Below are positions 5,728 through 48,545 of a stretch of DNA of 64,000 nt, in pieces. Position 1 is the first letter of the stretch. The number at the start of each line of letters is the position of its first letter. The stretch comes from Gordonia soli NBRC 108243 (GTDB taxonomy: Bacteria > Actinomycetota > Actinomycetes > Mycobacteriales > Mycobacteriaceae): positions 1-64,000 of the forward strand of contig NZ_BANX01000018.1 of assembly GCF_000334455.1 (NCBI RefSeq), written 5' to 3'. The notes below the pieces were generated by a model. The model had not been told where the DNA came from. It did not search any database and saw only the letters and a program-made list of their open reading frames with translations. Both the position numbers and the translations under genes were made by a program.

Positions 5728-6840
5728 GTGACGCGCATCCTCTTCGACTGCGACACCGGCATCGACGACTCGGTGGCCCTGCTGTACCTGCTGGCGCGGA
5801 CCGATGCCGACATCGTCGGCATCGCATCGACCGCGGGCAACGTCCCCGTGGACGTGGTCACCCAGAACAATCTGGCGTGGTTGACGCTGCTCCAGCGAGA
5901 CGAGATCCCGGTACACGAAGGATCCGCGGTCCCCCTCGTCGGCGGACTGACCACCACCGAGGACACCCACGGTCCGCTGGGAGTCGGCTACGCGGAATTG
6001 CCGACACCCACACAGACCGTCGCCGCGACCGATGCCGCCGACGCATGGATCGCGGCCTCACAGGAGTACCCGGGCGAACTCGTCGGTCTGGTCACCGGTC
6101 CAGCGACGTCGTTGGCCACCGCGATCCGTCGGGACCCCGCGCTGCCGACCCGCCTCCGCCGACTGGTGGTGATGGGCGGGGCCTTCCACGTCCACGGCAA
6201 CACCACCCCACTCGGCGAGTGGAACGTCACGGTGGATCCAGAAGCCGCGGCGGAGATGTTCCACGCCTTCGCCGACGACGCCGCACCCACCCCGATCGTA
6301 TGCCCGCTGGACATCACCGAGTCCATCGCCATGACCCCCGATCACGTCGTCCGACTCGCAGGTGCCGCGGGATCGTCGCCGGTCGAACTGCTGGACGGCA
6401 CCGACGATCTCGGCACGCGATCGGTCGCCGACACCCCTGTCATCCGGCACCTGACCGATGCACTGCGCTTCTACTTCGAGTTCCACGACGCTCACGACGA
6501 GGGCTACATCGCCCACCTGCACGATCCGCTGGCGGCCGTGATCGCCCTCGATCCGGGAATCGCCGAGACGCGGCCGGCGCACGTCGACGTCGAGTTGGTC
6601 GGCTCGCTGACCCGCGGCGCCACCGTCGCAGACGAGCGTGGGCTGTGGGGAGGGTCGGTCAACGCGCGGATCGTCACGGCGGTCGACGCCGACGCGGTCT
6701 TCGACGAGGTGATCGACCGCGTCGCCGCACTGGCCGCCGCCCACCGCGACGCGGTCGGGTCGCGCCCTGCTGCCGGCGAACAGCAGACGAGGGACGAACA
6801 GGAGACGGGGGACGAACAGGAGACGGGGGACGACCAGTAG
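5728..6840 (+). CDS. inosine-uridine preferring nucleoside hydrolase family protein
   Basis: A 370-residue member of the nucleoside hydrolase family, which cleaves the N-glycosidic bond of ribonucleosides for purine or pyrimidine salvage. The Ca2+-binding signature DCDTGIDDS is at residues 7-15, the VMGGAF motif is mid-protein and the late catalytic-site element LHDPLAAV is present. The start is the GTG at 5728, placing the signature at the usual distance from the N-terminus. The last 20 residues are an added acidic Glu/Gln/Asp tail encoded by an 18-nt tandem repeat and are not part of the fold. Exact nucleoside preference is unknown. Confidence 0.9.
   Translation: MTRILFDCDTGIDDSVALLYLLARTDADIVGIASTAGNVPVDVVTQNNLAWLTLLQRDEIPVHEGSAVPLVGGLTTTEDTHGPLGVGYAELPTPTQTVAATDAADAWIAASQEYPGELVGLVTGPATSLATAIRRDPALPTRLRRLVVMGGAFHVHGNTTPLGEWNVTVDPEAAAEMFHAFADDAAPTPIVCPLDITESIAMTPDHVVRLAGAAGSSPVELLDGTDDLGTRSVADTPVIRHLTDALRFYFEFHDAHDEGYIAHLHDPLAAVIALDPGIAETRPAHVDVELVGSLTRGATVADERGLWGGSVNARIVTAVDADAVFDEVIDRVAALAAAHRDAVGSRPAAGEQQTRDEQETGDEQETGDDQ
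6793..6828 (+). repeat. 2 x 18-nt in-frame tandem repeat in nucleoside hydrolase tail
   Basis: Two identical 18-nt units (6793-6810 and 6811-6828) encode DEQETG twice, followed by a partial unit (DDQ, stop). The repeat forms the extreme C-terminus, so its copy number could vary without touching the catalytic fold. Confidence 0.9.
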
Positions 6841-6878
6841 GGCGCATCCGGTCGGCGGCGAGGGCTGCCGAGCCGGAG

Positions 6879-6884
6879 TAGCGT
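6879..6884 (+). promoter_or_regulatory. -10 hexamer TAGCGT for a leaderless transcript
   Basis: TAGCGT is followed by 6 nt and then the GTG start at 6891. A start site about 7 nt after the -10 would make the GTG the first codon of the mRNA. No Shine-Dalgarno sequence is visible. Confidence 0.5.
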
Positions 6885-6890
6885 CGCGGT

Positions 6891-7841
6891 GTGACGAAAC
6901 TCGGCTATCAGATCCCCAACTTCACCTACCCGGACGTCCCCGCCGACGAACTCTTCCCCACCATCACCCGCCAGGCCGTCGAGGCCGAGAACTCGGGATT
7001 CGACACGGTCCTCGTGATGGACCACTTCTATCAGCTCCCGATGCTCGGCAGCCCCGACCAGGAGATGCTCGAGTGCTACACCCTCCTGACGGCGCTCGCC
7101 CAGCACACCTCGCGGGTCCGCCTGTCCTCACTCGTCACCGGCAACACCTACCGGCATCCCACACTGCTCGCAAAGACCGTCACCGCGCTCGACGTGGTCT
7201 CTGGCGGCCGCGCGCAACTGGGAATCGGTGCGGGCTGGTTCGAGCTCGAGCACGACTCGCTCGGCTACGAATTCGGTACCTTCACCGACCGTTTCGAGAA
7301 GCTCGAGGAGTCGCTGCAGATCGTCCTCGGCATGCTGCGCGGTGAGCGTCCCAGCCTGGACGGCAAGTGGTATCAGGTCCGCGACGCGATCAACTCCCCA
7401 GCCCCACTGAGCCGCATCCCGGTGTTGATCGGCGGCGGCGGCGAGAAGAAGACGCTGCGACTCGTGGCCCAGTACGCCGACGAATCCAATCTGATATGCG
7501 CGGTCGAGGACATCGGCCGCAAGCTGGAAGCCCTTGCCGGGCACTGCGAACGGCTCGGCCGCGACCGCTCGGAGATCACCGTCAGCCTGCAGACGTCGGC
7601 ATGTGTCGCGCCGACCCGCGAAGAGGCCGAGCGTGAGTTCGACGCGTACCTCGAGCGCACCCCCGAAGCCGGGGTGCGTCGTGGAACGGCGATCGTCGGC
7701 GCTCCCGCCGAGGTCGCGGAGGCATACGCGTCGCTCCTGGCCACCGGGGTCGACGGGGTGACCGTGAACCTGCCCGCCAACGGGCACATCGAAGGCAGGG
7801 TCCAGTTGCTCGGTGAGGCACTGGCCCCGTTGATCAAGTGA
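6891..7841 (+). CDS. LLM-class (luciferase-like) F420-dependent oxidoreductase
   Basis: A 316-residue TIM-barrel oxidoreductase of the bacterial luciferase superfamily, of the type that uses coenzyme F420 in actinobacteria. Family segments are LGYQIPNF at the N-terminus, FDTVLVMDHF, the RVRLSSLVTGNTYRHP strand, AQLGIGAGW, and the phosphate-binding IPVLIGGGGEKKTLRL region. The GTG at 6891 starts directly before the first barrel strand. The substrate is not predictable, and F420 rather than FMN use is family-level inference. It converges on meaB with a strong hairpin between them. Confidence 0.9.
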   Translation: MTKLGYQIPNFTYPDVPADELFPTITRQAVEAENSGFDTVLVMDHFYQLPMLGSPDQEMLECYTLLTALAQHTSRVRLSSLVTGNTYRHPTLLAKTVTALDVVSGGRAQLGIGAGWFELEHDSLGYEFGTFTDRFEKLEESLQIVLGMLRGERPSLDGKWYQVRDAINSPAPLSRIPVLIGGGGEKKTLRLVAQYADESNLICAVEDIGRKLEALAGHCERLGRDRSEITVSLQTSACVAPTREEAEREFDAYLERTPEAGVRRGTAIVGAPAEVAEAYASLLATGVDGVTVNLPANGHIEGRVQLLGEALAPLIK

Positions 7842-7855
7842 CCTGCTGACGCGCT

Positions 7856-7885
7856 GCCGCGCGACGGTCCGCCCCGTCGCGCGGC
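7856..7885. terminator. bidirectional hairpin between LLM oxidoreductase and meaB
   Basis: CCGCGCGACGG (7857-7867) pairs perfectly with CCGTCGCGCGG (7874-7884) around a 6-nt loop, with one further G-C pair outside. It sits 15 nt after the oxidoreductase stop and 86 nt beyond the meaB stop, serving convergent genes. No T-tract. Confidence 0.6.
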
Positions 7886-8994: not shown

Positions 8995-11317
<2,323 letters not shown>

Positions 11318-28309: not shown

Positions 28310-31393
<3,084 letters not shown>

Positions 31394-35526: not shown

Positions 35527-36318
35527 GTGACCGAAACCACAGGACAGCAGACCACGTCGGATCTCTCCGGACGCTCCGCGATCGTCACCGGTGCCAGCCG
35601 CGGCATCGGTGAGGCGATCGCAACCGAACTGGCCCGCCGCGGCGCGGCCGTCGTCATCACCGGCCGCAAGGCCGAACCGCTCGAAGAGGCAGCCGGCCGC
35701 ATCCGTGCCGCGGTCCCGGAGGCCGCCGTGACGGCCATCCCGGGCAACACCGGCGACGCCGACCACCGCAAAGCCGCTGTCGCCGCCGCTGTCGCCCAGG
35801 GCGGTGGCATCCACATCCTGGTCAACAACACCGGCATCAACCCGCTGGCCGGGCCGTTGATCGACGCCGACCTCGAGGCGTATCGCAAGATCTTCGACAC
35901 CAATGTGGTCGCCGCCCTGGGCTTCGTGCAGGAGGCCCACGCGGCCGGGATGGGCGAGACCGGTGGGTCGGTCGTCAACATCTCGTCGGTGGCAGGCATC
36001 CGGTCCACCGGCGTGATCGCTGCCTACGGCACCTCCAAGGCCGCATTGATCCGACTCACCGAGGAACTCGCCTGGGAACTGGGCCCGGGGATCCGGGTCA
36101 ACGCCGTGGCGCCCGCCATCGTCCGCACCAGGTTCGCGTCCGGACTGATCGCGGGCGACAACGAGGAACGAGCGGTGCAGGGCTATCCGCTCGGCCGGAT
36201 CGGTGAGGTCGAGGATGTCGCCCGCGCCGTCGCGTTCCTGGTCGGCGACGAGTCCGCCTGGATCACCGGCGACACCCTGCGCGTCGACGGCGGCCTTCTC
36301 TCCACCGGATCCCTGTGA
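35527..36318 (+). CDS. short-chain dehydrogenase/reductase (SDR)
   Basis: A 263-residue classical SDR with the NAD(P) loop TGASRGIG, the active-site Ser in NISSVAG and the YGTSK motif (Y and K of the triad), and C-terminal PLGRIGEVEDVARAVAFL as in FabG-like enzymes. The usual NNAG motif is NNTG here. The substrate is unknown. Its stop overlaps the start of crtL by 4 nt (GTGA), so the two are coupled, though an SDR is not an established carotenoid enzyme. Confidence 0.9.
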   Translation: MTETTGQQTTSDLSGRSAIVTGASRGIGEAIATELARRGAAVVITGRKAEPLEEAAGRIRAAVPEAAVTAIPGNTGDADHRKAAVAAAVAQGGGIHILVNNTGINPLAGPLIDADLEAYRKIFDTNVVAALGFVQEAHAAGMGETGGSVVNISSVAGIRSTGVIAAYGTSKAALIRLTEELAWELGPGIRVNAVAPAIVRTRFASGLIAGDNEERAVQGYPLGRIGEVEDVARAVAFLVGDESAWITGDTLRVDGGLLSTGSL

Positions 36319-37514
36319 CCCCTTTCCCCGATCAACCCGACAGGGTTTCGGAGGTCGGGGCACCCGACAGGGTCGTGGAGGTCGGGGCACCCGACAGGGT
36401 CGTGGTGGTCGGGGCGGGGCCGGCAGGCCGTGCGTTGTCGCATCGGCTGGCGCACCGCGGGGTCGCGGTCACGCTCATCGATCCGCACCCCGCGCGTCCG
36501 TGGCGGTCGACCTACGCCTGTTGGTCCGACGAACTGCCTGACTGGCTCGATCCGTCGGTGGTCTCGGCCGAGGTCGACTCGGTGCGGGTCATCGGTCACC
36601 GCCGCACCGAGGTCCACCGTGGGTATGCGGTGCTCGACACCGATCGTCTGCAGGAGACCCTGTCGGTCGTCGGTGACTCTCCTCTCGTCGTCTGCACTGC
36701 CGAGGCGGTCGCCGTGGCGCCGGACGGGGTCACCCTCGACGACGGCCGACGGATCGATGGTCGGGTGATCATCGACGCCCGGGGAGTCGGCGGGACAGGG
36801 CCGCGACAGACCGCATGGGGCATAGTCGTACCGACCGATGTGGCCGCGCCCGTCCTCGACGGTGCGTCGGCGATCCTGATGGATTTGCGGCCCGCGGACC
36901 CGACGGTCACCGGACTCCCCTCCTTCCTGTACGCGGTTCCACTCGACGGTGACCGCGTGCTCCTCGAGGAGACGTGCCTGGCGGGCGATCCAGCACTTCC
37001 GCTGTCGGAGTTGCGTACCCGGCTGGCCCAACGGCTGTCCCGGACCGGGATCGATCCGGCACTCGCCACCGCGACCGAGAAGGTCTCCTTCGGTCTGCAG
37101 GGCGCCAGCCGCGACCCGTGGCACCGACGACCGACGATGTTCGGCGCACGGGCCGGACTCATGCACCCGGCGTCCGGATACAGCGTCGCGGCGTCACTGG
37201 CCACCGCCGATCCGCTCGCCGCTGCGATCAGCGCAGGTGGCGATCCCACGCGTACCCTGTGGCCGCACTCGGCACGCATGGTCCAGCGCCTACGCGCGGC
37301 CGGCCTCGCGGTGCTGTTACACCTCGACGCCGACGACACGATGCGATTCTTCGACGACTTCTTCGACCTACCAGTCCATCGTCAACGCGCGTACCTGTCC
37401 GATCGCGATGACCTGCGAGGTCTGCTCGCAGCCATGCTCACCCTGTTCACCGCGACCGATCGGCGACTGCGTCGCCACCTCGTGCGAGCGGCGCCGCACC
37501 TCGTCGGACGCTGA
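36315..37514 (+). CDS. crtL: lycopene cyclase (CrtL type) with triplicated N-terminal strand
   Basis: A 399-residue FAD-linked cyclase that forms ionone rings on lycopene. The dinucleotide-binding strand VVVGAGPAGRALSHRL begins near residue 29. Family motifs are PSFLYAVPLDGDRVLLEETCLA and GARAGLMHPASGYSVAASLATAD, which match actinobacterial beta-cyclases. The GTG at 36315 overlaps the SDR stop. Unusually, residues 8-34 are three in-frame copies of a 9-residue unit (PDRVV-VGA) encoded by a 27-nt tandem repeat, so the first beta-strand is written three times. No other carotenoid gene is in the window. Confidence 0.88.
   Translation: MTPFPDQPDRVSEVGAPDRVVEVGAPDRVVVVGAGPAGRALSHRLAHRGVAVTLIDPHPARPWRSTYACWSDELPDWLDPSVVSAEVDSVRVIGHRRTEVHRGYAVLDTDRLQETLSVVGDSPLVVCTAEAVAVAPDGVTLDDGRRIDGRVIIDARGVGGTGPRQTAWGIVVPTDVAAPVLDGASAILMDLRPADPTVTGLPSFLYAVPLDGDRVLLEETCLAGDPALPLSELRTRLAQRLSRTGIDPALATATEKVSFGLQGASRDPWHRRPTMFGARAGLMHPASGYSVAASLATADPLAAAISAGGDPTRTLWPHSARMVQRLRAAGLAVLLHLDADDTMRFFDDFFDLPVHRQRAYLSDRDDLRGLLAAMLTLFTATDRRLRRHLVRAAPHLVGR
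36336..36416 (+). repeat. 3 x 27-nt tandem repeat at the start of crtL
   Basis: Units lie at 36336-36362, 36363-36389 and 36390-36416. Copies 1 and 2 differ at two bases, copies 2 and 3 at two. The unit is a multiple of three, so the frame is kept, encoding PDRVSEVGA, PDRVVEVGA and PDRVVVVGA. The third copy runs directly into the Rossmann glycine motif. Confidence 0.92.
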
Positions 37515-37515
37515 T

Positions 37516-40140
37516 CTACAGCCGCGAGTCGACCGGCTCCGATTCCAGGGCGAGCAACCCGAACACACACTCGTGCACTCGCCACAACGGCTCACCCGCG
37601 ACGTGCCGCGCCAACGCCTCACGCCCGAGGAGGTACTCACGCAGCGCCATCGACCGCTTGTGCCGGAGGTCCCGCTCTCGTAGCACCTCCAGCCGGTCGA
37701 GATAGGACGGCCCGTAGATGATGCGTAGGTACTCCGAGCTGCGAACCTTCACGCCCGGTGCCACGACCCTCCCCTTGTCGTCACGCACGGCGTTCGCCGC
37801 CGGCTTCACCACCATGCCCTCACCGCCGGCCGCGGTCAGCTCCGTCCACCACCGACCACCTGCGGCTCGGGACGCCGGGTCGCCTACGTCGACGACGCAC
37901 CGACGGGTGGACGCGAACAGCGATGGATCGGCTTCCACCAGCTGATCGGCAACGTCGAGATGCCAACTGTGTGGTTGTGTCTCGGCTGTCACTCCGCCCG
38001 CGCCGGCGCCGTGGGCGAGGATCTCGAACGGTGCGATGCGGACATCCGCGATGGTCGCCGTGGCGTCCACGTACCGCCCGTAGGCAGCAGTGAACGCGTC
38101 GACGTCGCGACGTCGGTCCTGCGTCGCGGCCAACATCTCACCGACATCCAACCCGCGGTCCGCAGCCGCGGAGAGTTCGGTCCGGAACAGATCGAGTTCG
38201 GCACCCGCCGCCGCGGAGACGGCGGCGAAGTGATCGCGGATCAGGCCTTCGCCCTTGATGTTCCATGGCAACAGCTCGGCATCGAGGATCAGCCAGTCCG
38301 ATTGCAGGGTGTCGAGGACGCCGGACGCGGCATCCCTGGTCCGGTCGAGCAGATCCGCCGTCGTCGGAGCGTCGAAGAAGGTTCGGCCCGTCCGGGTGAC
38401 GATCGCGCCCAACCCGTCCACGACACCGAATGCCGAAGCCGCGGCAGCCTGGTCACGGGTCACCACCACCATCGCCCGCGAGCCCATGTGCTTCTCCTCG
38501 CAGATCACCTCCGCCACACCTGACCGCGCATAGAAGTCGAAGGCCGCGTCGGGATCCTCGAGCAGTCCCGGGCTCCGTCCACCCACCGGGCTCATCGTCG
38601 GCGGCAGGTACCTCAGCCACCGTGGGTCCACCGCATATCGCGACATCACCTCGAGTGCCGACGCCGCGTGCTCGGCGCGAACGGTGACCGACGGCCCGAG
38701 ACGCGTGGTGATGACCCGCTTCCCGGCGACATCGTCGAGCCGCACCCGCGCGCGTACGCGGGCGTCGGCATCCGAGTCGCCGTAGCCCATCGGACGCTCT
38801 GGCTCCCAGTACGTCTCGTGCGCCGAGACCGCGACGGTCTCACGCTCGGGATGGCGCAGCGCCGTGAGCCGGCCACCGAAGACACAACCGGTGTCGATGC
38901 ACAGCGTGTTGTTGACCCAGCCGACCGCCGGAACGGGTGTGTGCCCGTAGACGACCGCTGCGGCGCCTCGATAGTCACGCGCCCAGTCGATCCGGATCGG
39001 AAAGCCATGACGATCGACCTCGCCGGAGGTCTCGCCGTACATCGCGAGGCTCCGAACCCGCCCGGACGATCGACCGTGGTATCGCTCCGCGAGACCTGCG
39101 TGGGCCACGACGAGACGTCCGCCGTCGAACAGATAGTGCGACACGAGGCCGTCGAGGAAGGTGATCACCGCGGCGACGAAGTCATCGGGCTCCCTGGCCA
39201 ACTGCGCCAGGGATTCCGCCAGACCGTGGTTCATGGTGAGCCGACCTCGGTCACGCCCGCTGCCGGTGCGCTGCCGAAGCGCCTTGAGTAGCTTCTCCTC
39301 GTGGTTCCCGCGCACGCAGATCGCTTGTCCGGCAGCCACCATCGACATGACGAGACGGAGCACCGCCGGGGTGTCCGGCCCGCGGTCGACGAGGTCACCG
39401 ACAAAGATGACCCGACGGCCGTCCGGGTGATCCTCCATCGTCGCGACCGCTGCCCCGTCGGGACGCGGAGCCGGTCTCCAGCCGAGGCGTTCGAGCAACT
39501 CGACGAGCTCGGCGTGACAACCGTGGACGTCGCCGATGATGTCGAACGGTCCCGTCTCGTCGGTCCGATCGCTGAAGAGTCTCGTGCGAGTGATCGACGC
39601 GGCATCGATCGCGTCCACACCCTCGAGGATGTGGACGAATCGGAAGCCCTCTTTGCGAAGTCCGCGCCCGTATCGGCGCAGCAGCCGGTGCTGACGCACG
39701 ACGACACCGCCGTCGACGTCCGTCCGCCCCGCAGTACGTCGCGTCAGCTCGTCGAGCGGCACGTCGAGGACGATCGCGACCGCGAAGACGTCGTGCTCCT
39801 TGGCCAGATCGACGAGGGCACGCCGATCCTCCGGGCGCACCGACGTGGCGTCGACGACGGTCAACAGACCTCGACGGAGTCGACGTGCCGCTACGTCGAA
39901 GATCACACTGAACGCATCGGTGGTGGCCGACTGGTCGGTCGGGTCATCCGCCACCAGACCGCGAAAGGCGTCCGAGGACAGTACCTCGGTCTCCTGGAAG
40001 ACCCGCCGGGCGAACGTCGACTTGCCCGCACCGGAGACACCGACGAGTACGACGAGGCACAGGGCCGGGATGTCCAGTCCGGTTGCGGTCACGGGGCTCG
40101 CGGCGTCGTCCACGGGGAACACCGCGTTCTCGTCGGTCAT
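37516..40140 (-). CDS. pnkp: polynucleotide kinase-phosphatase-ligase Pnkp (RNA repair)
   Basis: An 874-residue three-module RNA end-healing and sealing enzyme. Residues 28-190 are a P-loop 5'-OH kinase (GVSGAGKST, 34-42). Residues 198-430 are a calcineurin-like 2',3'-phosphatase (GDVHG 203-207, GDLVDRG 248-254, GNHE 278-281, H347, YGHT 398-401). Residues 480-874 are a nucleotidyltransferase/ligase with K550 in EEKHMGSR, ILDAELLPWN, GGEGMVVKP and KVRSSEYLRIIYG. Length and order match Clostridium thermocellum Pnkp. Its start overlaps the hen1 stop (ATGA). The ligase of bacterial Pnkp needs Hen1 to seal, which fits the coupling. Confidence 0.95.
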   Translation of the reverse strand: MTDENAVFPVDDAASPVTATGLDIPALCLVVLVGVSGAGKSTFARRVFQETEVLSSDAFRGLVADDPTDQSATTDAFSVIFDVAARRLRRGLLTVVDATSVRPEDRRALVDLAKEHDVFAVAIVLDVPLDELTRRTAGRTDVDGGVVVRQHRLLRRYGRGLRKEGFRFVHILEGVDAIDAASITRTRLFSDRTDETGPFDIIGDVHGCHAELVELLERLGWRPAPRPDGAAVATMEDHPDGRRVIFVGDLVDRGPDTPAVLRLVMSMVAAGQAICVRGNHEEKLLKALRQRTGSGRDRGRLTMNHGLAESLAQLAREPDDFVAAVITFLDGLVSHYLFDGGRLVVAHAGLAERYHGRSSGRVRSLAMYGETSGEVDRHGFPIRIDWARDYRGAAAVVYGHTPVPAVGWVNNTLCIDTGCVFGGRLTALRHPERETVAVSAHETYWEPERPMGYGDSDADARVRARVRLDDVAGKRVITTRLGPSVTVRAEHAASALEVMSRYAVDPRWLRYLPPTMSPVGGRSPGLLEDPDAAFDFYARSGVAEVICEEKHMGSRAMVVVTRDQAAAASAFGVVDGLGAIVTRTGRTFFDAPTTADLLDRTRDAASGVLDTLQSDWLILDAELLPWNIKGEGLIRDHFAAVSAAAGAELDLFRTELSAAADRGLDVGEMLAATQDRRRDVDAFTAAYGRYVDATATIADVRIAPFEILAHGAGAGGVTAETQPHSWHLDVADQLVEADPSLFASTRRCVVDVGDPASRAAGGRWWTELTAAGGEGMVVKPAANAVRDDKGRVVAPGVKVRSSEYLRIIYGPSYLDRLEVLRERDLRHKRSMALREYLLGREALARHVAGEPLWRVHECVFGLLALESEPVDSRL

Positions 40141-41516
40141 GAGTCGTCCTCGTCGTCTCGGGTGAACACGGCGACCTGGGTCGGCGTGCCCGCATCCGGG
40201 TCCTCGTCACCGATACCGTCATAGGTCACGGCGTATCGGTACTCGTCGGCGACCGACGCGGCCCAGGTGGTGAACTCCGCACGCGTGAACTCGAATCGGT
40301 GATCCGGGTGGCGGAACCGCGCGCCCAGCCCGTACACCGCGTTGTACTCACGATTCGGGGTCGTCACGACGACCGTGCGGGGCGACATCTCGTCGAACAC
40401 GGATGCCATCGCGGTGGCCAGGCGGTCGGCGTCGACGTGTTCGACGACCTCCATCAGCACGACGGCGTCGTAACCACGACATCGCTCGTCGGCGTACATC
40501 AGCGACGACTGCCACAGGTCGATTCCGGGCCATCGGTCGAGCCGAGCCCGAGCGGCATCGAGAACCGCCGGCGCGACGTCGATCCCGGCCAGCCGGCCGA
40601 ACCCGTTGCGGGCCAGCGCTGCGAGTAGTCTCCCCTCGCCGCACCCGACGTCGAGCACCGATCGGGCTCCGGTCTGTTCGAGCACGTCCACCACCCGGGA
40701 CAGCCGCCGGCGCGCGAGTGGTTCGCGGTGGGGCGCCGCGGCCTCCCCCGACGTCCCGGATCCGCCGTCCGGTCCCGCTCCATCGCGACCGTCCGACGAC
40801 GACACGTCGGATGCCATCCGCGCGGAGGCGGTTTCGGCCAGATGGCGCAGGTTCTTGACATAGCCCGCGACGATGTCGTCGCGGTGGGGATGGTCGACGA
40901 GCCATCCGTCCCCGAGTCGCTCGAGCTTGTCGATCTCCTCGTCGTCGACGAAGTAGTGCTTGTCGTCGGCGAGCACCGGGATCACCACTGCGATGTGGCG
41001 CAACGCGTCTCGGATCGATTGACTGCCCGACAACCGAATGGTGACGAAGTCGGAGTCACCCCATTCCTGCGGACTCAACGGCTGCGCGACCTCCGACACC
41101 CGCCAGCCGAGCGGTGCGAACAGTTCGGTCGGCTTCCGTTGCGAGCGCACCGGAACCGACGGGATCGTCAGGGTGAGTGGCCAGCGGACGTCGACGAGGT
41201 CGGGACGGTTCGCGCATCGGCCGGCGAGTGCGTCGCCGAAGACCTTGCCCAGTGCCACGATCAAGCGCGACGATGCCGCATACGGGACAGTGTTGACGTG
41301 TCGGTCGACGTCGCCGCCGCGGTCGATCTGTGCGCCCTCGCCGTCGACATGCAGGACCGCACGACAGGTGTCGGAGGTCGCGACGGGATAGAACACGGTC
41401 GCGCGGCCCTGACTGGTCGCGAACTCCTGGACCCGGTCGGGATGCTTGTGCAACAGGTAGCCGAGATCGGTCGCCGGGTACTGCCCGCTCCGCGAGACTT
41501 CCATCGACAGGATCAC
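40137..41516 (-). CDS. hen1: 3'-terminal RNA ribose 2'-O-methyltransferase Hen1
   Basis: A 459-residue partner of Pnkp. The N-terminal half (about 1-245) is the Pnkp-activating domain. After an acidic Gly/Ser linker (237-260), residues 265-450 form a Rossmann methyltransferase: SAM loop VLDVGCGEG (287-295), metal ligands E356, E359 and H360 in MEVVEHVD, and H406 in HPDHRFEF. It 2'-O-methylates the 3' end of broken tRNA before ligation, protecting the repaired site from a second cut. The GTG at 41516 is preceded by TACCGT and 6 nt (leaderless). Coupled to pnkp by a 4-nt overlap. Confidence 0.95.
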   Translation of the reverse strand: MILSMEVSRSGQYPATDLGYLLHKHPDRVQEFATSQGRATVFYPVATSDTCRAVLHVDGEGAQIDRGGDVDRHVNTVPYAASSRLIVALGKVFGDALAGRCANRPDLVDVRWPLTLTIPSVPVRSQRKPTELFAPLGWRVSEVAQPLSPQEWGDSDFVTIRLSGSQSIRDALRHIAVVIPVLADDKHYFVDDEEIDKLERLGDGWLVDHPHRDDIVAGYVKNLRHLAETASARMASDVSSSDGRDGAGPDGGSGTSGEAAAPHREPLARRRLSRVVDVLEQTGARSVLDVGCGEGRLLAALARNGFGRLAGIDVAPAVLDAARARLDRWPGIDLWQSSLMYADERCRGYDAVVLMEVVEHVDADRLATAMASVFDEMSPRTVVVTTPNREYNAVYGLGARFRHPDHRFEFTRAEFTTWAASVADEYRYAVTYDGIGDEDPDAGTPTQVAVFTRDDEDDS

Positions 41517-41577: not shown

Positions 41578-41967
41578 TCAGGACAGCTCGCGCCACCGGG
41601 TGATCATGGCGTCCACGTCGACGAGCGGCGCGACCAGGTTCGACGTCGGTCCGCGGCCGCGGGAACCCAGCCGCTCGTACCGTACGCGCCGGTTGTAGTC
41701 CTCGAGGACGGCCCGCACCGCATTTTCCCCGGTGAGACCGCGCAACGATTCCGGGAAGCCGTCGGCCTCTTTGCGCAATCGGAGGACCGGCGGCAGCAGC
41801 GCAGAGGAGCCGAGATTCTCGTCACGGATCTTGCGTTTGACCCACCAATCGGGGTCGTCGCTGTCGGAGAGGTCGAGAGGCTTGCCCGCACCCGGCAGAT
41901 CGTCGAAGTCACCGCGGGCGGTGGCCTCGCGGATGAGGCGCTCGACGCGCGACTCGAACCGATGCAC
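41578..41967 (-). CDS. DUF1992 (DnaJC28-like) protein
   Basis: A 129-residue protein carrying the DUF1992 domain, also found in animal DNAJC28. Typical segments are IREATARGDFDDLPGAGKPL near the N-terminus, DDPDWWVKRKIRDENL, and the C-terminal RRVRYERLGSRG region. There is no J-domain and no membrane helix. The function is unknown. It lies between the SUF operon end and hen1, on the same strand as both, with gaps of 86 and 61 nt; the start is the ATG at 41967. Confidence 0.88.
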   Translation of the reverse strand: MHRFESRVERLIREATARGDFDDLPGAGKPLDLSDSDDPDWWVKRKIRDENLGSSALLPPVLRLRKEADGFPESLRGLTGENAVRAVLEDYNRRVRYERLGSRGRGPTSNLVAPLVDVDAMITRWRELS

Positions 41968-42053: not shown

Positions 42054-42419
42054 CTACACCGTGAAGCCCAGCGCGCGGAGCTGTTCGCGTCCGTCGTCGG
42101 TGATCTTGTCGGGCCCCCACGGCGGCAGCCACACCCAGTTGATCTCGAGGTCGGTGCAAAGTCCGCTGCTCACCAGGGCTGCTCGCGACTGGTCCTCGAT
42201 GACGTCGGTGAGCGGACACGCGGCCGAGGTCAGCGTCATGTCCAGCTTGGCGACGGCGTCGTTGTCGATGTCGATCCCGTAGACGAGGCCGAGGTCGACG
42301 ACGTTGATCCCGAGTTCCGGATCCACGACATCGCGCATCGCCTCTTCCACGTCTTCGACCAGTGGCAGCGACGTGGTGGGCGCTTTCGGCGCGGTGCCGG
42401 TGGTGGTGTCTTCGGTCAT
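42054..42419 (-). CDS. sufT: SufT-like Fe-S assembly factor (MIP18/DUF59)
   Basis: A 121-residue protein with the MIP18/DUF59 fold: VEDVEEAMRDVVDPELGINVVDLGLVYGI and the TSAACPLTDVI segment with the conserved Cys. It assists Fe-S maturation or repair and corresponds to Rv1466. The ATG at 42419 shares a base with the sufU stop (TGATG), which fixes the start and makes it the last gene of the SUF operon. Confidence 0.93.
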   Translation of the reverse strand: MTEDTTTGTAPKAPTTSLPLVEDVEEAMRDVVDPELGINVVDLGLVYGIDIDNDAVAKLDMTLTSAACPLTDVIEDQSRAALVSSGLCTDLEINWVWLPPWGPDKITDDGREQLRALGFTV

Positions 42420-42892
42420 CAGGACTCCTTTGCGGTCACGGGGGCGTGCTTCTCGTCGACCGTCTGTGCCAACGCGTCCTTGAACGCCAACCATCCCAGC
42501 AACGCGCATTTCACACGCGCCGGGTACTTGCTCACGCCGGCGAAGGCGATGCCGTCGCCGATGATGTCCTCGTCGCCCGCTTCGGTGCCGCGGGAGGTCA
42601 TCATGCTGTTGAACGCGCCGATGGTGGCCAATGCATCATCCACCTTCGAGCCGACGACCTGATCGTGCAGCACCGAGGTGGAGGCCTGCGAGATCGAGCA
42701 TCCCTGGCCGTCGTAGGAGATGTCCTCCACGACCGTCCCGTCGTCCGACAACGTGACCCGGAGCGTCACCTCGTCTCCACAGGTGGGGTTGACGTGGTGG
42801 ACCTCGGCACCGAACGGGTCTCGCAGTCCGCGCCCATGGGGGTGTTTGTAGTGGTCCAGGATCACTTCCTGGTACATCTGTTCCATCCGCAC
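42419..42892 (-). CDS. sufU: SUF system sulfur relay/scaffold protein SufU
   Basis: A 157-residue IscU-like protein that accepts persulfide from SufS. The metal and sulfur ligands are C38, D40, C65 and C129 (NPTCGDEV, GQGCSIS, RVKCALLGW), with the GRGLRDPFGAEVHHV start typical of the SufU branch. The GTG at 42892 has GGGGGA 9 nt upstream and lies 5 nt past the sufS stop; a long upstream extension of the frame is antisense noise. Length matches Rv1465. Confidence 0.95.
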   Translation of the reverse strand: MRMEQMYQEVILDHYKHPHGRGLRDPFGAEVHHVNPTCGDEVTLRVTLSDDGTVVEDISYDGQGCSISQASTSVLHDQVVGSKVDDALATIGAFNSMMTSRGTEAGDEDIIGDGIAFAGVSKYPARVKCALLGWLAFKDALAQTVDEKHAPVTAKES

Positions 42893-42897
42893 GGCGA

Positions 42898-44292
<1,395 letters not shown>

Positions 44293-45066
44293 TCAGGACG
44301 CGGCCGCGGCCGACGTGAACCGGACGTAACCGTTGTCCTCGAGCTCGTCGGCGAGCTCCGGACCACCCGACTCCACGACCCGGCCGTTGACGAACACATG
44401 CACGAAGTCGGGCTTGATGTAGCGCAGGATTCGCGTGTAGTGGGTGATCAGCAGGATGCCGCCGTGCTCGTTCGCCTTGTACCGGTTGACACCCTCGGAC
44501 ACCACACGCAGGGCGTCGACGTCCAGACCGGAGTCGGTCTCGTCGAGGATCGCGATCTTCGGCTTGAGCAGGTCGAGCTGCAAGATCTCGTGGCGCTTCT
44601 TCTCGCCGCCGGAGAACCCCTCGTTCACGCTGCGCTCGCCGAACGACGGATCGATCTCCAGCGCCGTCATCGCCTCCTTGGTCTCCTTGACCCAGTGGCG
44701 CAGCTTCGGGGCCTCGCCGCGGACCGCGGTCGCCGCGGTCCGGAGGAAGTTCGACATGGAGACGCCGGGCACCTCGACCGGGTACTGCATCGCCAGGAAC
44801 AGCCCCGCGCGGGCGCGCTCGTCGACGCTCATCTCCAGCACGTCCTCACCGTCGAGGGTGATCGACCCGGAGGTCACCTCGTACTTGGGATGGCCGGCGA
44901 TGGCGTAGGACAGGGTCGACTTGCCGGACCCGTTGGGGCCCATGATGGCGTGCGTCTCGTCGGAGCTGACCGTGAGGTCGACACCCTTGAGGATGTGGAT
45001 CGGCTCGGCATCCGAGTCGGACTGTGCGACGTCGACATGCAGGTCGCGGATTTCCAGAGTGGTCAC
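44293..45066 (-). CDS. sufC: Fe-S assembly ATPase SufC
   Basis: A 257-residue ABC-type ATPase that drives the SufBCD scaffold. Walker A is GPNGSGKST, the signature is FSGGEKKRHEI, and the Walker B region ILDETDSGLD shows the SufC-specific spacing. The start is a GTG at 45066, with GGAAG 5 nt upstream. The gene follows sufD by about 50 nt and precedes sufS by 84 nt. Confidence 0.96.
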   Translation of the reverse strand: MTTLEIRDLHVDVAQSDSDAEPIHILKGVDLTVSSDETHAIMGPNGSGKSTLSYAIAGHPKYEVTSGSITLDGEDVLEMSVDERARAGLFLAMQYPVEVPGVSMSNFLRTAATAVRGEAPKLRHWVKETKEAMTALEIDPSFGERSVNEGFSGGEKKRHEILQLDLLKPKIAILDETDSGLDVDALRVVSEGVNRYKANEHGGILLITHYTRILRYIKPDFVHVFVNGRVVESGGPELADELEDNGYVRFTSAAAAS

Positions 45067-45115
45067 GATGTCTTCCTTGATGATTCGGGGCTGTGGTTGG
45101 CTGAAGTCCGCGCGC

Positions 45116-46291
45116 TCAGGCGCCGGCGGATTCGAGTTCGACCTCGATGGCCGCCTCGAGACGCTCACGCAGTTCCGGGACACCGATCTTGGCGATCACC
45201 TCGCGGAAGAACCCACGCACCACGAGACGGCGAGCCTGGTCCTCCGGAATGCCCCTGGCCTGCAGGTAGAACAGCTGCTCGTCGTCGAATCGGCCGGTGG
45301 CACTGGCATGCCCGGCGCCGACGATCTCGCCGGTCTCGATCTCCAGGTTCGGCACCGAGTCCGCGCGTGCGCCGTCGGTCAGCACCAGGTTGCGGTTCAA
45401 CTCGAAGGTGTCGGTGCCCTCGGCCTCGGGACGGATCAGCACGTCGCCGATCCACACCGTGTGCGCCTCGCGGGCGCGATCGCCCGGGACGCCTTGCAGG
45501 GCACCCTTGTAGACGACGTTCGAACGGCAGTGGGGCTGGCTGTGATCGACCAGCAGTCGCTGCTCGAGGTGCTGTCCCGCGTCGGCGAAGTACAGACCCC
45601 AGAGTTCGGCGTCACCGCCGGGGGCGTCGTAATGCACCACCGGGGACAAGCGGACGAGATCGCCGCCCAAACTGATCGCGAAGTGACGGATCACCGAGTC
45701 GCGACTGAGCTTCACGTGATGTGCGGCCACGTGAACCGTGTCGTCGGCCCAGTCGTGGACGTTGACAACGGTCAGCGCGGCCTGGTCACCGACGACGAAC
45801 TCGACGTTCTCAGCGTATGTCCCGCTGCCCTTCTGGTCGAGGACCACGACGGCGCGCGCGAACGGCTCCAACCGGATCTGCAGGTGCCCGAAGGCCACCT
45901 CGCCCTCACCCGGTCCGGTCACGGTGATGGTGACCGGGTCGGACAGCTCGATCTCGGTGCCGACCGTCACGACGGTGGCCTCGGTGAAACCTGAGTACGC
46001 CTGTGCGGCGATGCGGTCGAAGGGCACGCCACCCTGGCCGAGGCGCTCGTCATCACGACCGACGGTCTCGACACGGACGCCGTCGGTGACTCCCTCGACC
46101 TCGACGCCCGCCTCACCGGACCGCTGCGCGGACCCGTCGTGCAGACCGCGAAGGCGACGGAACGGCGTGAACCGCCATGCCTCCTCACGTGAGTGGGGCA
46201 CCTCGAAGGCGTCCACGTCGAACGACGTGAACTGCTCACCCTTGTTGACCGCGAGGGCCGCCGGGGTGGCGGGGATCGTGGGATCCGCCAT
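45116..46291 (-). CDS. sufD: Fe-S cluster assembly protein SufD
   Basis: A 391-residue beta-helix protein that pairs with SufB in the SufBC2D scaffold. Visible family segments are SREEAWRFTPFRRLRGL at the N-terminus, the repeated beta-helix strands in the middle (LYFADAGQHLEQRLLVDHSQPHCRSNVVYKGAL) and GHASATGRFDDEQLFYLQARGIPEDQARRLVVRGF at the C-terminus. The ATG overlaps the sufB stop by one base (TGATG). Confidence 0.96.
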   Translation of the reverse strand: MADPTIPATPAALAVNKGEQFTSFDVDAFEVPHSREEAWRFTPFRRLRGLHDGSAQRSGEAGVEVEGVTDGVRVETVGRDDERLGQGGVPFDRIAAQAYSGFTEATVVTVGTEIELSDPVTITVTGPGEGEVAFGHLQIRLEPFARAVVVLDQKGSGTYAENVEFVVGDQAALTVVNVHDWADDTVHVAAHHVKLSRDSVIRHFAISLGGDLVRLSPVVHYDAPGGDAELWGLYFADAGQHLEQRLLVDHSQPHCRSNVVYKGALQGVPGDRAREAHTVWIGDVLIRPEAEGTDTFELNRNLVLTDGARADSVPNLEIETGEIVGAGHASATGRFDDEQLFYLQARGIPEDQARRLVVRGFFREVIAKIGVPELRERLEAAIEVELESAGA

Positions 46292-47754
46292 CAGCCGACC
46301 GCCCCTTCCATCTGCAGCTCGATGAGCCGGTTGAGCTCCAGCGCGTACTCCATCGGGAGTTCCTTGGCGATCGGCTCCACGAATCCGCGGACGACCATCG
46401 CCATCGCCTCGTCTTCGGTCAGCCCGCGACTCATCAGGTAGAACAACTGGTCGTCGCTCACCTTCGAGACGGTGGCCTCATGACCCATCGTCACGTCGTC
46501 CTCACGGATGTCGACATACGGATACGTGTCGCTCCGGCTGATCTGATCGACCAGCAGCGCATCACATTTCACCGTCGAGCGGCTGCCATGGGCACCGTTG
46601 TTGATCTTGATCAGGCCGCGGTACGACGCTCGTCCGCCGCCGCGCGCCACCGACTTGGACACGATGTTGCTGGAGGTGTTCGGCGCCAGGTGCACCATCT
46701 TGGAGCCGGTGTCCTGGTGCTGCCCCTCGCCGGCGAAGGCGACCGACAGGACCTCGCCCTTGGCGTGCTCGCCTGTCAGCCAGACGGCCGGGTACTTCAT
46801 GGTGACCTTGGAGCCGATGTTGCCGTCGATCCACTCCATGGTCGCGCCGGCCTCGGCCTTCGCACGCTTGGTGACCAGGTTGTAGACGTTGTTCGACCAG
46901 TTCTGGATGGTCGTGTAGCGGCAGCGGCCGCCCTTCTTGACGACGATCTCGACCACGGCCGAGTGCAACGAGTCGGTCTTGTAGATCGGCGCGGTGCAGC
47001 CCTCGACGTAGTGCACGTAGGCGCCCTCGTCGACGATGATCAGCGTCCGCTCGAACTGACCCATGTTCTCGGTGTTGATCCGGAAGTAGGCCTGCAGCGG
47101 GATGTCGACGTGCACACCCGGCGGGACGTAGATGAACGATCCACCCGACCACACCGCGGTGTTCAGCGCAGAGAACTTGTTGTCGCCTGCGGGGATGACC
47201 GATCCGAAGTACTCCTGGAACAGCTCCGGGTGCTCCTTGAGACCGGTGTCGGTGTCGAGGAAGATCACGCCCTGCTGCTCGAGGTCCTCACGGATCGAGT
47301 GGTAGACCACCTCCGACTCGTACTGGGCGGCGACACCGGCGACCAGACGTTGCTTCTCGGCCTCGGGGATGCCGAGCTTGTCGTAGGTGTTCTTGATGTC
47401 CTCGGGGAGGTCGTCCCAGGACGCGGCCTGCTTCTCGCTGGACCGCACGAAGTACTTGATGTTGTCGAAGTCGATGCCGTCGAGCTCGGCGCCCCAGTGC
47501 GGCATCGGCTTGCGATCGAAGATGCGCAGCGCCTTGAGACGCTGTTCCAGCATCCATTCGGGCTCGCTCTTCTTCGCCGAGATGTCGGCGACGACCGCGT
47601 CGGACAGACCGCGCTGGGCGCTGGCGCCCGCCTCGTCGGAGTCGGACCAGCCGTAGCCGTATGTGCCGAGGGAGGCGATGGTCTCCTCCTGCGACAACGG
47701 CGTTGGCTTGACCGGCGTACCGGTGTCGGTCGCGGCGGGATCGGTGACTGTCAT
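46291..47754 (-). CDS. sufB: Fe-S cluster assembly protein SufB
   Basis: A 487-residue scaffold core. It contains [34 protein letters not shown], the [21 protein letters not shown] strands, [18 protein letters not shown] and the C-terminal [22 protein letters not shown]. The sequence is continuous, so the intein known in M. tuberculosis SufB is absent. Its ATG overlaps the sufR stop by 4 nt, so regulator and scaffold are translated in one unit. Confidence 0.97.
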
Positions 47755-48545
47755 CGCGAGGCCTTTCGACTCGTCTTCTGGTGAGCGGGTGTGGGCTGGG
47801 GCCCGCTCGCTGTCGTGTCTGCATCGGCAGGCGATGCGACACCATCCGGCGGAGGATGCAGCGGCACGTGGGTGGTGCAGGCGCAGTCACCGTTGGCGAT
47901 CGTCGCCAGGCGTTGCACATGCGTGCCGAGCAGTTGGGTGAAGACCGCGGTCTCCGCCTCACACAACTCCGGGAACTCGGTGGCCACGTGGGCGACCGGA
48001 CAATGGTGTTGGCAGATCTGCATACCGGTGCCGACCTGCCGGGTGTTCGCCGCGAATCCCGCGCTGGTGAGGGCGTCGGCGATCTCGTCGACCGTCTCGG
48101 CCACGGAACCCGACTCGTCGGCCGGGGTGACCCCTGCGACGATTCGTTCCACCCGGTCGCGGGCGAAATCCTCCACCGCGTCCGAGCCACCGATGTCACG
48201 CAGCTTGCGCATCGCGGCGCCCGCGAGATCGTCGTAGGCGTGCCGCAGTTTGCCGCGACCGCCTGCGGTCAGCTGGAACCACTTGGCCGGACGTCCACGA
48301 CCACGCTGCCCGAAGCCCGAGGACGAGACCTCCACGTCGCCCGCGGCGACGAGCGCGTCCAGGTGTCGGCGGACGCCCGCCGGGCTGATACCCAGACGCT
48401 CCGCGATCTCGCCTGCGGTCAACGGACCACCCTCGACCAGCAGTGTCACCACTGCGTTCCGGGTGTGGCCGTCGTGATGTCCGGCGACGGGGGTATCCCC
48501 GACTCCGGCGCCCGAGGGCACGACATCACTCCGCACGGTTTTCAC
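47751..48545 (-). CDS. sufR: SufR-like Fe-S-sensing repressor of the SUF operon
   Basis: A regulator of about 264 residues with a DeoR/ArsR-like winged helix near residues 28-90 ([26 protein letters not shown]) and a C-terminal domain with C178, C182, C195, C221 and C223. The spacing of C182, C195 and C223 matches the ligand cysteines of Rv1460. It should bind its operator with its cluster loaded and derepress suf when clusters are lost. The start is uncertain: GTG 48545 falls within the predicted operator and GTG 48536 is an alternative; the better motif AAGGAGG lies 27 nt before 48545 and does not decide it. Confidence 0.9.

Follow-up and report, generated by a model that had tools for sequence, protein, structure and literature searches.

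The bacterial Pnkp-Hen1 complex, known from work on Clostridium thermocellum and Anabaena variabilis, is the described system closest to the locus considered here, a pair of genes, hen1 and pnkp, in a stretch of 64,000 nucleotides (nt) from Gordonia soli NBRC 108243 (contig NZ_BANX01000018.1, positions 1 to 64,000; hereafter the window). An earlier note on this DNA had read the pair as an RNA-repair cassette, and the curated family matches, the order of the domains and the residues make the locus a canonical, complete Pnkp-Hen1 cassette. The complex is described as a heterotetramer whose two genes always lie in one operon (PMC4411300); the N-terminal domain of Hen1 is reported to activate the ligase (PMC4411300; likewise PMC3973293), and 2'-O-methylation to protect the repaired RNA (PMC4411300). 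Resistance to re-cleavage by colicin D has been shown for the related Pnkp1-Rnl-Hen1 complex (PMC4411300), and a putative Pnkp1-Rnl-Hen1 complex is reported from Borgs (PMC11208441).

The locus resembles the studied bacterial Pnkp-Hen1 systems in its two-gene operon, its kinase-phosphatase-ligase order, the combination of Hen1_L with a methyltransferase, and its catalytic residues; it differs from them in sequence divergence and in its setting at the tail of the suf genes, and no defining difference was found. With Pnkp1-Rnl-Hen1 of Capnocytophaga gingivalis it would share the same four activities, but there the ligase is separate and hen1 distant (PMC4411300), whereas here the ligase lies inside Pnkp and hen1 is adjacent, and neither a separate ligase gene nor an unlinked hen1 marks the locus as a member of that group. 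RtcB RNA ligase likewise acts in RNA repair after cleavage, but belongs to a different protein family (PF01139), and the window's genome also has an RtcB, on another contig (C41). We know of no methyltransferase partner of RtcB. Eukaryotic HEN1, the small RNA 2'-O-methyltransferase, has a homologous methyltransferase domain (PDB 4xcx, 5wy0, 3htx), and acts on small RNAs, with no known Pnkp partner.

A complete Pnkp-Hen1 cassette

The two genes are coupled by a 4-nt overlap on the minus strand, as had been proposed (Table 1). Both proteins score above the curated NCBI equivalog cut-offs of their families (340 bits for TIGR04074 and 750 bits for TIGR04075), which confirms their identity as Hen1 and as a kinase-phosphatase-ligase. 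In Pfam terms Hen1 consists of Hen1_L and a methyltransferase domain, and Pnkp of an AAA_33 kinase, Metallophos and PNKP_ligase, so that all three Pnkp activities would reside in one protein that itself passes the cut-off. Since both proteins pass curated cut-offs and every domain of either has relatives in the PDB (E 1e-37 to 1e-104), the match is far beyond chance. The N-terminal domain of Hen1 is, by its matches to Hen1_L and PDB 4dqz, predicted to be of the type that activates the Pnkp ligase.

Residues tell the same story. Besides the kinase and phosphatase motifs and K550 (Table 1), Pnkp has RGNHE at residue 277, and in alignments of close relatives picked by similarity, where some other checked positions vary, K40, D57, R60, D97, D249, R253, N279 and K550 are identical in 95/95 rows. 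Hen1 E356, E359, H360 and H406, which we take to bind metal, are identical in 125/125. Every motif and residue singled out in the earlier note is thus in place, and the loss of catalytic residues that it had named as evidence against a working cassette was not seen.

How the cassette would work can be sketched from published studies of its relatives, which supply the reactions, while the anatomy, families, residues, pairing and distribution were observed here. The ends left by an endoribonuclease would be a 2',3'-cyclic phosphate and a 5'-OH. The 3' end would be cleared by the phosphatase of Pnkp and the 5' end phosphorylated by its kinase, Hen1 would add a methyl group to the 2'-OH at the terminus, and the break would be sealed by the ligase of Pnkp, which the N-terminal domain of Hen1 enables, giving a rejoined RNA that should resist a second cut at the same bond. 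The suggestion of repair combined with a protective 2'-O-methyl mark agrees with the biochemistry described for relatives (PMC4411300). We put the probability that hen1-pnkp is a functional Pnkp-Hen1 RNA-repair operon at about 0.9; a role against a ribotoxin is suggested by published biochemistry and not by the locus itself.

Table 1. Features of the hen1-pnkp locus and its surroundings (window positions)
Feature	Position	Strand	Evidence
hen1, Hen1 methyltransferase gene	40137..41516	-	459 aa, GTG start; TIGR04074 516.7 bits
pnkp, kinase-phosphatase-ligase gene	37516..40140	-	874 aa, ATG start; TIGR04075 1222.9 bits
Overlap of hen1 stop and pnkp start, 4 nt	40137..40140	-	Open reading frame coordinates and sequence
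Hen1 N-terminal domain (Hen1_L)	40815..41516	-	PF12623 269 bits, residues 1-234; PDB 4dqz E 3.2e-50
Hen1 methyltransferase domain	40161..40718	-	Residues 267-452 match PDB 3jwg, E 1.2e-48
Pnkp 5'-OH kinase domain	39601..40077	-	Residues 22-180 vs PDB 4gp6, E 5.8e-39; GVSGAGKST at 34
Pnkp phosphatase (metallophosphoesterase) domain	38929..39549	-	PF00149 54 bits, residues 198-404; PDB 4j6o E 3.2e-92; GDVHG at 203
Pnkp ligase (adenylyltransferase) domain	37534..38658	-	PF16542 510.8 bits, residues 495-869; K550
DUF1992 (DJC28_CD) gene, 61 nt upstream of hen1	41578..41967	-	PF09350 75.6 bits
sufT-like gene, last of the suf run	42054..42428	-	PF01883 70 bits; below NCBIfam cut-offs
sufR-like, sufB, sufD, sufC, sufS, sufU, collinear with cassette	42419..48464	-	sufR and sufC starts inferred
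Lycopene cyclase family gene, converging on pnkp; bounds the site on the side away from suf	36315..37514	+	PF05834 210.3 bits; TIGR01790 218.1 vs 209.5

Pairing and distribution

The pairing is close to universal: among 104 loci with longer flanks, a sample in which some genomes are counted twice, 103 have a Pnkp gene following that of Hen1 in the same orientation, and the exception (L102) lies near a contig end. By listed starts of open reading frames (ORFs), 101 of the 103 pairs overlap or lie no more than 20 nt apart.

The cassette itself is patchily distributed. Hen1 exceeds its cut-off in 25/59 Gordonia genomes, and Pnkp does so in the same 25; the corresponding figures for Hen1 are 90/298 in an order-level sample and 3/198 in the largest sister genus sampled, probably Mycobacterium, which together answer the call for a survey of neighbouring taxa. 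The suf operon of M. tuberculosis is given as Rv1460 to Rv1466, with neither hen1 nor pnkp named there, in the portion of PMC6034842 drawn on here. One Gordonia genome (G041) has a C-terminal Pnkp ligase fragment only (L144 9232-9744, near 4.03 Mb), probably the remnant of a lost cassette, and its suf site, near 1.04 Mb, is cassette-free. Among 72,556 records of a plasmid collection 21 match Hen1, 17 of them over at least 80% of its length, and at least one of these 17 is chromosome-sized. Such a patchy distribution fits an accessory function in stress or conflict better than a housekeeping one. The earlier proposal that the cassette was gained here or lost in M. tuberculosis is partly answered, in so far as presence is patchy within Gordonia, two lineages exist, cassette-free sites occur and one remnant is found; the marker tree tried for counting gains and losses is unreliable.

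Two lineages in Gordonia

The 11 loci closest to Hen1 of the window, with best-segment identities of 54-62%, are titled Gordonia (8), Williamsia muralis (2) and Kitasatospora (1). In a quick tree of 125 Hen1 proteins (LG+G4, SH-aLRT support only, midpoint root), many of them top-scoring picks, the window's sequence belongs to a group of 13 Gordonia proteins together with those of W. muralis and the Kitasatospora record (support 100, stem 0.56), which we call lineage S. The 12 other Gordonia sequences, lineage O, fall at more than one point among the Hen1 proteins of other actinobacteria. Depth and branching order are unsure, because branches are long enough to draw a warning from the program and the root is a midpoint. 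No Gordonia genome carries both lineages, which would have a chance of 0.035 if they were independent, though the genomes are related. Across six proteins, the record titled Kitasatospora arboriphila (L053, NZ_JNYV01000001.1) shares 94-98% identity with W. muralis; a wrong label or contamination is probable.

Aconitase was tried as a species marker for counting gains. Its tree, covering 57/59 genomes (no row for G010 and G042; G015 and G039 partial), needs 8 changes for lineage S, 6 for lineage O and 12 for either. The aconitase of the window's genome (G000; window 28514-31393) is 97% identical to that of G018, as against 52-88% for six other proteins of the two genomes, and the tree was therefore rejected for this purpose; the identity suggests that the aconitase gene was recently transferred.

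The suf site and probable exchange of the cassette

In ten of the 13 Gordonia genomes of lineage S the cassette lies at the 3' end of the suf run, bounded by sufT on one side and the lycopene cyclase gene on the other; it comes after DUF1992 in 8 and before it in 2 (G001 and G028). The other three (G033, G054 and G004) have no suf gene within the stretch fetched around the cassette, and all 12 cassettes of lineage O lie away from suf. In 13/13 other Gordonia genomes with a sufT-lycopene cyclase interval, a hand-picked and non-random sample, no cassette is found there; 8 of these intervals are under 1 kb and 5 span 1.7-6.6 kb.

A comparison of G001 and G028, which share an insertion point, indicates how the site may change. 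Their flanks are 85-97% identical in 250-base windows and their cassettes 62-82%, with the exception of one 80% window at the upstream edge of the cassette; G028 has about 3.6 kb of extra DNA beside DUF1992. The difference at four-fold sites is 0.52 for hen1 and 0.48 for pnkp, against 0.19-0.33 in four flanking genes. As four-fold sites are raised too, faster protein evolution is disfavoured and replacement of the whole cassette by recombination is favoured, which suggests that the cassette has been exchanged as a unit in this one sister pair. None of 5 other suf-site pairs, compared like the first with mechanically assigned ORF starts, clearly shows such an exchange: in G031-G032 and in the Kitasatospora record-W. 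muralis pair, divergence of the cassette is mildly above that of sufU and sufT and not above that of the lycopene cyclase gene, and in G040-G018 it is sufU and sufT, not the cassette, that show raised divergence. G046 has a lineage S cassette at the suf site, while in G055 the same site lacks a cassette and one of lineage O lies elsewhere; four flanking proteins of the two are 85-97% identical.

A conflict module?

Presence and absence together with allele exchange would also be expected of a module for defence against phages or for conflict between bacteria, which would be replaced at a variable site as defence genes are. This role would be compatible with the enzymology, and we regard it as possible, with the odds somewhat against it. 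In its favour, the interval between sufT and lycopene cyclase is occupied in one relative (G047, L148 9595-15659) by GmrSD_N, HipA and Mrr-like genes, and phage XacN1 is reported to encode PNKP and a Hen1-like protein (PMC5852040). Yet of the 8 other Pfam-matched ORFs of the interval 5 are of oxidoreductase or LuxR type and none is a defence gene by name, clear allele exchange is confined to the one pair, PADLOC does not list the cassette, and carriers lack PrrC/RloC. Of the other long intervals scanned, that of G034 holds a LuxR-type gene, and the main ORFs scanned in those of G051 and G053 have no Pfam match. With G047 as the one clear case, the suf site was not adopted as a defence hot-spot.

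The absence of a nearby toxin, claimed in the earlier note, holds for the ORFs scanned at 19-54 kb of the window, among which none was seen; that scan took in part of the ORFs in this range, all of at least 124 aa, and short toxins would have escaped it. A putative AbiEii toxin is named in the description of AAA_21, a family matched by two of the ORFs scanned, but both match ABC_tran best. Neighbours were surveyed more widely around 95 Hen1 loci that remained once duplicates had been removed, as ORFs of at least 80 aa no more than 6 kb away. Of ten representatives scanned from the 45 largest neighbour clusters, 2 are transporters, 4 belong to metabolic or RNA-modification families, and 4 have no Pfam match and may include some wrong-strand shadow ORFs.

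Several results weigh against a functional repair operon. No toxin was recognised among those ten neighbour representatives; PrrC/RloC-type genes (PF13166) occur in 0/25 cassette carriers and 3/34 non-carriers in Gordonia; PADLOC returns weak partial matches to MADS (mad2/mad3) only, of 45 bits over Hen1 residues 273-390 and 20 bits over Pnkp residues 24-46, which do not make the cassette a member of that system; and in a phage collection 4/50,697 records match Hen1, none over 80% of its length. In G018, moreover, the Pnkp match reaches position 777 of the 851 in the model, the downstream part lying in another frame, so that intactness is not established for every Pnkp copy counted. Two frames are needed in that genome to cover pnkp, and likewise the lycopene cyclase gene (L128 10326-12935 and 12182-12931), owing either to broken genes or to sequencing errors.

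Two neighbours deserve separate mention. RtcB is present in 17/25 carriers and 14/34 other Gordonia genomes; with a Fisher p of 0.065 and relatedness not corrected for, we claim no association with the cassette. In G016 (L142, RtcB 6747-7862) an RtcB gene immediately precedes hen1-pnkp in the same orientation, at a distance of about 70 nt; blastp found no RtcB in the other loci searched. In L090 the gene immediately before hen1, in the same orientation, is an ORF for a luciferase-like monooxygenase (9017-9928); its cluster spans 35/95 loci, mostly of Streptosporangiaceae and Actinomadura, and the adjacency is probably shared gene order.

The cassette as a possible tail of the suf operon

Another role compatible with the enzymology, and one we consider unlikely, would not involve foreign ribotoxins: expressed under SufR as the last part of the suf operon, the cassette would mend RNA that is damaged from within the stressed cell, by iron shortage, oxidation or internal RNases. 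The gene order invites this reading: sufR-like, B, D, C, S, U, T, DUF1992, hen1 and pnkp follow one another on one strand, with gaps of 86 nt before DUF1992 and 61 nt before hen1. SufB, D, C, S and U exceed NCBIfam cut-offs, and the SufR-like protein, at 76 bits, falls under its cut-off of 178.8. The cassette is on the suf strand in 10/10 suf-site Gordonia genomes and in Williamsia muralis, and by listed starts hen1 begins within 108 nt of the preceding gene in 9/10 suf-site genomes; in G008 a Pyr_redox-family gene lies between the preceding gene and hen1. The suf genes of M. tuberculosis, moreover, are described as induced under iron limitation (PMC6034842). On the other hand, the 10 suf-site loci probably share descent, and their agreement in strand therefore does not amount to 10 independent events; 3/13 and 12/12 Gordonia cassettes of lineages S and O, respectively, lie away from suf, and 0/69 loci outside lineage S (L058-L126) have sufT, sufU or DUF1992 nearby. 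Promoter and terminator scans do not help the case either: 0 promoters were found against 0.8 expected from shuffles, and 3 terminators against 3.8, the single one on the cassette strand lying inside pnkp. As the terminator scan does no better than shuffles, co-transcription of suf, hen1 and pnkp is something we infer.

That the two genes are degenerate and without function is extremely improbable: lineage S does diverge from other Hen1, with a stem of 0.56 changes per column in the quick tree, and departs, at 4 columns of Hen1 and 7 of Pnkp, from a residue that is conserved to 95% or more elsewhere, but no checked catalytic residue is among these, Hen1 E356, E359, H360 and H406 and Pnkp K550 are kept in 15/15 members, both frames in the window are full-length, and nonsynonymous divergence (dN) is well below synonymous divergence (dS) in the cassette pairs compared.

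Significance

The Pnkp-Hen1 cassette is already well known, and what is mildly new here is its setting at the tail of suf and one case of block exchange. No report of Pnkp-Hen1 beside suf, or exchanged in Gordonia, was found among open-licence PMC titles and abstract openings, which is weak evidence of absence since suf and Hen1 terms were never combined. A more specific proposal, in our view distinctly unlikely, joins the two: the divergent Pnkp-Hen1 of Gordonia and Williamsia would form the 3' tail of a SufR-controlled suf operon, so that iron or oxidative stress would switch on RNA repair along with iron-sulfur assembly, and alleles at that site would pass between species as complete cassettes, the pattern expected if the genes were in an arms race with RNA-cleaving agents that keep changing. 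To our knowledge, the natural substrate and trigger of bacterial Pnkp-Hen1 have not been established, though the enzymes are understood in vitro; a cassette that sits behind suf in some species and is missing or swapped in close relatives would offer matched strains and a testable trigger, iron or oxidative stress.

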